Shown here one piece after another: positions 2,933-13,396 of a stretch of 64,000 nt of DNA. The notes under the pieces are model-generated. The model ran no database searches. It saw nothing but the letters and a program-made list of their open reading frames with translations, and had not been told where the DNA came from. A program made the position numbers and the translations under genes. Numbering within the stretch: position 1 is the first letter of the stretch; each line of letters starts with the position of its first letter. Source of the DNA: an uncultured Bacteroidia bacterium (lineage in GTDB: Bacteria > Bacteroidota > Bacteroidia > NS11-12g > UBA9320); assembly GCA_905478335.1 (NCBI GenBank), contig CAJQIC010000029.1:1-64000 (forward strand), written 5' to 3'.

Positions 2933-3003
2933 GGTCTCGTGGCCGAGTGGCTAGGCAGAGCTCTGCAAAAGCTTCCACAGCGGTTCGAATCCGCTCGAGA
3001 CCT
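2933..3003 (+). tRNA. tRNA-Cys (anticodon GCA)
   Basis: The acceptor arms GGTCTCG and CGAGACC pair fully, and the discriminator is T, as expected for tRNA-Cys. The anticodon stem GAGCT/AGCTT frames loop CTGCAAA, giving anticodon GCA. The T-arm contains GGTTCGAAT. CCA is not encoded. The 3' 17 nt recur exactly at 3158-3174 (see the repeat units downstream). Confidence 0.95.
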
Positions 3004-3123
3004 CAAGCAAATCCTGATCTATGTGATCGGGATTTTCTATTTTTATGGTGAATGGAGCTTGCTCCGAAGAGCCAGAAAAATAGAAAAGACAAAGGCTACC
3101 GATAGGTAGACTGGATTTGCTTG
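3004..3123 (+). repeat. Structured repeat unit A after tRNA-Cys
   Basis: The unit is bounded by a perfect 11-bp inverted repeat: CAAGCAAATCC (3004-3014) and GGATTTGCTTG (3113-3123). Inside are a terminator-like hairpin (3009-3035), a perfect 12-bp stem TTTTCTATTTTT/AAAAATAGAAAA (3033-3044 with 3076-3087) enclosing the small hairpin GGAGC-TT-GCTCC (3054-3065), and a hairpin CTACC-GATA-GGTAG (3096-3109). No coding frame is evident. Unit B repeats this layout with different stem sequences. Confidence 0.7.
3009..3035 (+). terminator. Terminator-like hairpin after tRNA-Cys
   Basis: AAATCCTGATC pairs with GATCGGGATTT (one T-G pair) around a 5-nt loop and is followed by a short T-rich tract. It starts 6 nt after the tRNA. 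AAATCC can instead pair with GGATTT at 3113-3118, so two folds compete. Confidence 0.6.
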
Positions 3124-3157
3124 TACACCCATAAAATCGTTTACCGGAACGCAGAGC

Positions 3158-3296
3158 AATCCGCTCGAGACCTCGAGTAAATCCTGACTATTTAGTCGGG
3201 ATTTTTTGTTTTTACCACGACTGGAGCTCGCTCCAAGGAGATGGTAAAACGAAAAAGCCAGAGGCTACCGAAAGGTAGGCTGGTGATCAGGAATTA
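3158..3296 (+). repeat. Structured repeat unit B with duplicated tRNA-Cys 3' end
   Basis: It begins with a 17-nt exact copy of the tRNA-Cys 3' end plus one base (3158-3174). It then repeats unit A's plan: terminator hairpin (3179-3207), a long stem (3202-3217 with 3242-3256, one bulge and one G-U pair) around GGAGC-TC-GCTCC (3223-3234), hairpin CTACC-GAAA-GGTAG (3265-3278), and an outer stem TAAATCCTGA/TCAGGAATTA (3178-3187 with 3287-3296, one mismatch). Several stems differ in sequence from unit A yet still pair. Confidence 0.7.
3179..3207 (+). terminator. Second terminator hairpin, unit B
   Basis: AAATCCTGACTA pairs with TAGTCGGGATTT around a 2-nt loop, followed by a run of six T. It is stronger than the unit A version and lies 5 nt after the duplicated tRNA end. 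Confidence 0.7.
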
Positions 3297-13169: not shown

Positions 13170-13243
13170 GCTCCCGTAGTTCAACTGGATAGAATACCAG
13201 ATTTCGGCTCTGGTGGTTAGGGGTTCGAATCCCTTCGGGTGCA
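13170..13243 (+). tRNA. tRNA-Arg (anticodon TCG)
   Basis: Acceptor GCTCCCG pairs with CGGGTGC (one T-T mismatch at the third pair), with discriminator A. The anticodon stem CCAGA/TCTGG frames loop TTTCGGC, giving TCG. The T-arm is AGGGG-TTCGAAT-CCCTT. CCA is not encoded. Its last 16 nt plus two following bases recur exactly at 13379-13396. Confidence 0.93.
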
Positions 13244-13251
13244 CAGGTTAG

Positions 13252-13289
13252 AAAGAGTCTCTTATTTAATTTAGGAGACTCTTTTTTTT
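13252..13289 (+). terminator. Terminator after tRNA-Arg
   Basis: AAAGAGTCTC pairs with GAGACTCTTT across a 12-13 nt loop and is followed by a run of eight T. Confidence 0.8.
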
Positions 13290-13305
13290 ATTGGCAGTTA
13301 CGTAT

Positions 13306-13396
13306 TCGAACTAGCGGTGGCCAGGGGTTCGAAATGTATTCACGAATGCCTATTTATCAAAACTAAAAGCTAATGAGTAATCCCTTCGGGTGCACA
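13306..13396 (+). repeat. Split partial copy of tRNA-Arg 3' half
   Basis: CGAACTAGCGGTGGCCAGGGGTTCGAA (13307-13333, given here as positions) resembles the tRNA-Arg anticodon-to-T-loop part. It is followed by about 45 nt of unrelated sequence and then AATCCCTTCGGGTGCACA (13379-13396), an exact 18-nt copy of the tRNA 3' end (13228-13245). The copy is non-functional as a tRNA because the T-arm is interrupted. Confidence 0.6.

Follow-up and report, generated by a model that had tools for sequence, protein, structure and literature searches.

The analysed window, a stretch of 64,000 nucleotides from the genome of an uncultured Bacteroidia bacterium, carries near its beginning a tRNA-Cys(GCA) gene that is directly followed by two tandem copies of a structured unit, the second of which is preceded by a displaced copy of the end of the tRNA gene. 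The features of this array, all on the + strand, are as follows.

2933..3004, +, tRNA-Cys(GCA), the putatively invaded gene (ARAGORN; Rfam match 2933-3003)
2988-3004, +, copied block, the last 17 nt of tRNA-Cys
3004..3123, +, cloverleaf unit A (123.5 bits with model R2)
3004..3014, +, 5' strand of the outer stem of unit A, CAAGCAAATCC
3009..3036, +, intrinsic terminator of unit A, AAATCCTGATC-tatgt-GATCGGGATTTT, whose stem core is the cloverleaf hairpin H1
3033..3087, +, long A/T stem H2 of unit A (3033-3044 with 3076-3087; cap GGAGCTTGCTCC at 3054-3065)
3094..3109, +, hairpin H3 of unit A, GGCTACC-GATA-GGTAG
3113..3123, +, 3' strand of the outer stem of unit A, GGATTTGCTTG
3124..3157, +, spacer with the terminal right-end motif ...CCGGAACGCAGAGC, which resembles the T-stem 5' strand (remnant)
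3158..3174, +, displaced exact copy of the tRNA-Cys 3' end, whose first nucleotide is A58 of the T-loop
3174..3296, +, cloverleaf unit B (R2 match 3174-3289, 91.1 bits)
3179-3208, +, terminator of unit B
3202-3217 with 3242-3256, +, H2 of unit B (cap 3223-3234)
3263-3278, +, H3 of unit B
3287-3296, +, 3' strand of the outer stem of unit B

Two tandem structured units behind tRNA-Cys had been proposed in a preliminary description of this DNA, which gave the position of unit A exactly, and all of the stems named there were located. The fold energy of unit A was -50 kcal/mol compared with -24.0 in shuffled sequences (z -7.9), and unit B also folded more stably than its shuffles (z -5.3 for 3158-3296 and z -4.5 for 3172-3296). 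Together with its outer stem, unit A forms a cloverleaf with the hairpins H1, H2 and H3, in which H2 is capped by GAGC-TT-GCTC and H3 carries a GATA loop. The outer stem, described as common to both units, is sound in unit A; in unit B (TAAATCCTGA/TCAGGAATTA) it contains one mismatch, rivals the terminator hairpin and is absent from the minimum-energy fold. Terminator hairpin and outer stem had further been described as parts of one plan and both are indeed present, but a single 5' strand serves both structures, so that they are mutually exclusive. The 17-nt repeat AATCCGCTCGAGACCTC is exact at both 2988-3004 and 3158-3174, in agreement with the copy of the tRNA end reported before unit B. The remark that this copy is what an integrase would leave was not borne out: no integrase gene turned up in or beside the array, the neighbouring ORF matched no Pfam family, and the closest relatives with coding capacity have a GIY-YIG nuclease instead.

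The compensatory stem changes read from the two units were borne out among five tRNA-Cys units, in which 8 pairs are changed on both sides vs 2.3 in shuffles. Model R1, a covariance model built from five tRNA-Cys units only, detected divergent units directly 3' of tRNA or tmRNA genes at E 1e-3 or better per genome, namely behind Asn, Arg(ACG), Arg(TCG), Ser(TGA), Ser(GGA), Met and Leu-like tRNAs and tmRNA, and a search of tRNA flanks added a match behind Val, while weaker model matches (E 0.003-0.04; L311-L314) corresponded to ordinary terminators behind protein genes. Units at Cys, Met, Asn, Ala and Leu all adopt the same cloverleaf in their minimum-energy folds. In alignment A5 (21 matches, 20 distinct units from many tRNA loci), whose fitting to the model is a bias toward the structure, 91.7% of cells are paired, 41 of 44 pairs are changed on both sides (25.9 in shuffles), the doubly changed cells number 216 (60.5 in shuffles) and the covariation score is 0.679, compared with 0.203 in shuffles and at most 0.152 when partners were slid by 1-3 columns. 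RNAalifold, run on its own, recovered the same hairpins with 37/40 pairs doubly changed. With 80 distinct sense-strand units, all 44 pairs are doubly changed (1029 cells) and Watson-Crick cells amount to 3000 vs 1752 in shuffles. The covariance-model search of Bacteroidota suggested in the preliminary description thus returned strongly covarying relatives at tRNA 3' ends, the finding on which it had made its reading depend, namely that the structure is under selection as that of an unnamed RNA or of a palindromic mobile unit targeting such ends.

The paired cells of the 80 units include 127 G-T against 55 A-C combinations, and this excess indicates that the tRNA-sense strand is the folding strand; it would fit a folded sense strand consisting of RNA as well as of single-stranded DNA. 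The H3 loops of these units are mostly C-GNA-G (GAA 22, GCA 10) or C-GNNA-G (GACA 6, GATA 6), with GNRA nearly absent among the GNNA tetraloops; loops of these types are those of very stable DNA mini-hairpins.

By DNA similarity search, units were found in the same genus only (genomes G001 and G004) and always behind tRNA-Cys, a confinement attributable to the too-fast divergence of the units. Likewise, the exact pattern GGCTACCGANAGGTAG occurred in genome contigs by chance only among the matches listed (no GGAGC hairpin), with the exception of a contig from the same genus (L056). Model R2 gave matches in 50 of 88 genomes of the order (E 1e-3), in 79 of 296 genomes and 57 of 166 genera of the class (E 1e-4), and in three genomes of the phylum beyond the class (E 1e-6). 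Among the 51 top-hit loci of R2, 44 begin between -2 and +9 nt from the 3' end of a tRNA or tmRNA gene called by ARAGORN, with Ser, Leu, Pro, Arg, Cys, Ala, Val, Met, Gln and tmRNA as host genes; the others mostly follow tRNAs missed by ARAGORN or displaced tRNA ends, L382 being the exception. In the phylum search, 21/24 loci are adjacent to tRNA or tmRNA genes and the remaining three follow tRNA-like 3' ends. A negative control of 0.75 Mb of mostly unrelated bacterial DNA returned nothing below E 0.07. In fifteen of the model-found loci, searches with Rfam 15 yielded nothing but the tRNA and tmRNA genes, and only tRNA, tmRNA and rRNA matches above the gathering score over all Bacteroidota loci searched; a literature search, within its limited coverage of subscription papers, returned no description of these elements. 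The family is accordingly presented as a structured element for which no description was found in Rfam 15 or in the literature searched.

On the far side of the units, a displaced copy of the own tRNA 3' end, typically cut at T-loop A58, often lies 20-60 nt after the unit. Among 61 testable units, 35 have behind them a run of 7 nt or more that is identical to part of the T-arm/3' region of their own tRNA (11 in shuffles), and A58 is the exact start in 18 of those 35 runs. A spacer 5-mer complementary to the T-stem of the own tRNA is present in 24/61 units vs 7.0 (maximum 14) with permuted tRNAs, often in the context ...GGGATCACGAGCGGAGCGAGT/AATCCC (the slash marks the boundary). Because this T-stem complement stands before the displaced copy, the right end resembles a T-arm with an enlarged loop. 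In the window, the GCAGAGC directly upstream of the displaced tRNA-Cys copy is similar to the T-stem 5' strand, of which it would be a remnant, and the tRNA-Cys arrays of genomes G001 and G004 have GCGGAGC at the equivalent place, paired with TCCGC; right ends are decayed in many loci.

Tandem arrays at tRNA-Cys occur in three species, with two units and a truncated third in G001 and four units in G004, where units 2-4 have other sequence in place of the terminator, while a plain terminator stands behind tRNA-Cys in those loci of G002, G003 and other genera whose sequence was examined. The replacement in units 2-4 of G004 (L135) is ~100 bp long and forms another imperfect inverted repeat, GAGTGTGAGTACG...CGTACTCG. 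The tRNA-Cys gene of G003 (L162, G003:C107:10674-10865) is broken in the assembly by a run of Ns, which may stand for a hidden insertion or for a gap in the scaffold.

A scan of tRNA 3' flanks in the same genome as the window showed that the last ~17 nt of tRNA-Ala, initiator tRNA-Met, tRNA-Arg(TCG) and tRNA-Leu(GAG) recur downstream of the respective gene; these copies start at A58 and are preceded by AGC, AGT or GGC. One of these loci lies in the window (13170-13396), with the copy 134 nt downstream of the gene.

13170..13244, +, tRNA-Arg(TCG), the second tRNA of the window with such an insertion (ARAGORN)
13379..13395, +, displaced exact copy of the last 17 nt of tRNA-Arg(TCG), preceded by GAGT

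The Arg-TCG site is filled in G000 and G001 and empty in G004, where the sequence behind the intact tRNA equals that behind the displaced copy in the filled sites. At Asp, G001 has an insertion and G000 the empty site, and of two Met paralogues one is filled and the other empty, the terminator of the latter beginning like the sequence behind the displaced copy of the former. Of these three inserts, only that at Met matched the cloverleaf model. A nuclease gene is present in the insert at Asp, and that at Arg, without a model match in the window, is of another kind. The Arg insert also holds a second piece that looks like the T-arm of that tRNA, GGGGTTCGAA. The units themselves are patchy between close relatives. 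A dense tRNA gene cluster with very similar acceptor ends (..AATGTCTCAAC), possibly phage-borne, was noticed in G003 (L207, C103).

A comparable architecture exists in E. coli K-12 tyrV (L166, NC_000913.3 1285500-1287500), where tandem 178-bp repeats lie directly behind tRNA-Tyr, each closing with ...GAGT, after which 19 nt of the tRNA 3' end are repeated exactly from A58 onwards; the repeat stretch GGGGAAGGAT is complementary to the T-stem and the acceptor 3' strand. On account of this common displaced-end architecture, the Bacteroidota family was grouped with rtT-like tRNA-linked repeats: as with rtT/RttR at E. coli tyrT and tyrV, tandem repeats stand behind a tRNA, each with a tRNA 3' end copy from A58, and the GAGT/AATCC boundary and T-stem complement are common to both. 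Differences lie in the many tRNA kinds and many genera in which the Bacteroidota units occur. The cloverleaf model scored the rtT repeats at 5.5 bits at most (best match in the stretch 11.5 bits, not significant), and the Rfam RtT family had no match to Bacteroidota units in the loci searched. REP/BIME and other small palindromic repeats are short, palindromic, non-coding, repeated within a genome and furnished with mini-hairpin loops, a description that may apply to the cloverleaf units as well, but the latter are limited to tRNA and tmRNA 3' ends and carry copied tRNA ends and a terminator.

Of the two options left by the preliminary description, the mobile unit fits better than the unnamed RNA, given the presence and absence of units among relatives, the empty sites, the fixed T-loop boundary of the displaced ends and the tandem arrays. 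That the units are mobile, non-coding, tRNA-restoring elements is regarded as probable, a judgement that does not extend to the enzyme that moves them. The rtT RNA of E. coli tyrT is released from the tRNA transcript by tRNA-processing enzymes, and the cloverleaf could likewise be a functional RNA that is transcribed when the polymerase passes the tRNA terminator and that such enzymes set free, the copied tRNA 3' end serving them as a signal for processing or as a decoy. The strong covariation on the tRNA-sense strand with more G-T than A-C cells, the fixed place behind the tRNA, the pairing of the T-arm-like right end with the displaced T-stem and the tandem architecture also found at E. coli tyrV with its annotated RttR RNA would all suit this explanation, which nevertheless appears rather unlikely, as the terminator at the 5' end of the unit should end most transcripts before the cloverleaf, the units are patchily present among close relatives, and the H3 loops are of the C-GNA-G and C-GNNA-G types with hardly any GNRA among the GNNA tetraloops.

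Improbable, too, is an origin as attachment-site remnants, in which a tyrosine integrase would have acted in trans at the T-loop and each unit would be a minimal cassette or what a deletion left of a larger island. Tyrosine-integrase elements restore the tRNA 3' end through an identity block, which is found at both ends of the cloverleaf units, and T-loop integrases leave displaced 3' ends of this sort, with which direct repeats and tandem copies are compatible. Mycobacteriophage Ms6 is the precedent: its core AGGGGTTCGAATCCCCTTAGCTCCAC lies in the T-arm, and its insertion at the T-loop restores the tRNA and displaces a 3' fragment (PMC1762012); partial tRNA genes arise from such tRNA insertions (PMC9897764). 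T-loop insertion, restored tRNA and displaced fragment recur in the cloverleaf units, but these are only ~150-180 bp long and combine the lack of an integrase gene in or beside the array with many tRNA targets, whereas Ms6 needs full core identity (PMC1762012), and a conserved fold is unexpected for remnants. A further account, a plain tandem duplication of tRNA 3' ends and terminators in which the inverted repeats are selected only as terminators, can draw on the identity of H1 with the terminator, on the existence of tandem copies and on the weak model matches to plain terminators behind protein genes. It is very improbable, since H2, H3 and the outer stem covary though unneeded for termination, strong matches are confined to tRNA and tmRNA ends with no similar frequency behind the terminators of protein genes, and A58 breakpoints recur at many unrelated tRNA loci.

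According to the mobile-element explanation, the array would comprise two copies of a non-coding element of ~170 bp, whose family is found across Bacteroidota. The element would begin with the tRNA 3' end from A58, continue with the cloverleaf including the terminator and a short spacer, and finish with the T-arm-like right end, consisting of the T-stem 5' strand and an enlarged loop with terminal AGC or AGT. Insertion would take place in the T-loop and displace the original tRNA 3' end to the far side of the element, while the host gene would stay intact because the left end of the element would restore the tRNA and bring a new terminator. Repeated insertion or unequal recombination would generate the tandem arrays. 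The elements would presumably move as DNA, the sense-strand cloverleaf being recognised as single-stranded DNA or as extruded hairpins. Points against this explanation are the decay of right ends noted above and the tRNA-specific 3' end on each unit, which entails an extra step for a jump between tRNA kinds.

Coding elements occupy the same site. The tRNA-Asp insert of G001 encodes a GIY-YIG nuclease (PF01541, E 6e-14), and among 40 small GIY-YIG loci of the order, 15 follow a tRNA or tmRNA gene at a distance of no more than 240 nt and always share its strand. At eight GIY-YIG loci the tRNA 3' end is repeated 331-381 nt further on, some in tandem, so that elements of ~350 bp with the same T-loop geometry as the cloverleaf units are delimited; at the right boundary they often retain more of the T-loop (TTCG) than those units do, a point against the link between the two. 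The A58 boundary of tRNA-Asn is followed by a cloverleaf in G000 and G001 and by a GIY-YIG gene in G003. Both classes are thus inserted in the T-loop with a displaced tRNA 3' end, the difference being that the cloverleaf units encode no protein and hence no GIY-YIG nuclease.

It is conceivable, though tentative, that a GIY-YIG endonuclease cuts the T-loop (GTTCGAATC) and that recombinational repair then copies or duplicates the element; the GIY-YIG elements at the same site would be its autonomous relatives. SegB, a phage nuclease of the GIY-YIG class, cleaves within tRNA genes at the motif RAWTSGAAC and brings about tandem amplification through recombination (PMC13096335), and the GIY-YIG elements described here resemble this system in their T-loop position, duplicated tRNA 3' ends and tandem arrays. 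By our own comparison, which is not made in that paper, the reverse complement of the motif, GTTCSAWTY, fits the T-loop sequence. The link draws on common site and geometry only, and this nuclease class is the best candidate; genome co-occurrence does not support it, as cloverleaf and GIY-YIG counts over 58 genomes are uncorrelated (Spearman 0.09, p 0.51) and the genome of the window has no small GIY-YIG gene, PF01541 matching only two ORFs of 636 and 460 aa.

A broader and still more doubtful proposal is that the units belong to phylum-wide miniature mobile elements that use a folded single strand as substrate, invade tRNA and tmRNA genes at the universal T-loop, come to provide the 3' end and the terminator of the host gene and owe their movement to GIY-YIG nucleases encoded by genes that would form the autonomous class, with the rtT repeats of E. 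coli as a distant case. This work adds an element that is widespread, structured and unmatched in Rfam 15; if mobile, it would illustrate how tiny DNA elements can enter essential genes without harm and would offer a framework for the repeats of E. coli tyrT. Annotation calls for caution where a tRNA gene of Bacteroidota is followed by a second copy of its 3' end and a doubled terminator, as these may be the ends of such elements, and the link to T-loop-cutting GIY-YIG nucleases is open to direct testing.

Some individual GIY-YIG loci deserve mention. A match beside 5S rRNA (L300) was dropped, as it looked like a decayed uvrC reading frame. In G003, a GIY-YIG gene lies ~200 nt behind tmRNA (L287) and an 11-nt copy of the tmRNA end, GGCAGCTCCAC, is found further downstream, this short copy making a weak case for a tmRNA-linked element. 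Behind tRNA-Phe, Asn and Asp (L405, L408 and L409, respectively), GIY-YIG units are followed after the displaced tRNA end by a terminator and the start of the same gene again, which indicates that nuclease genes also stand in tandem arrays.
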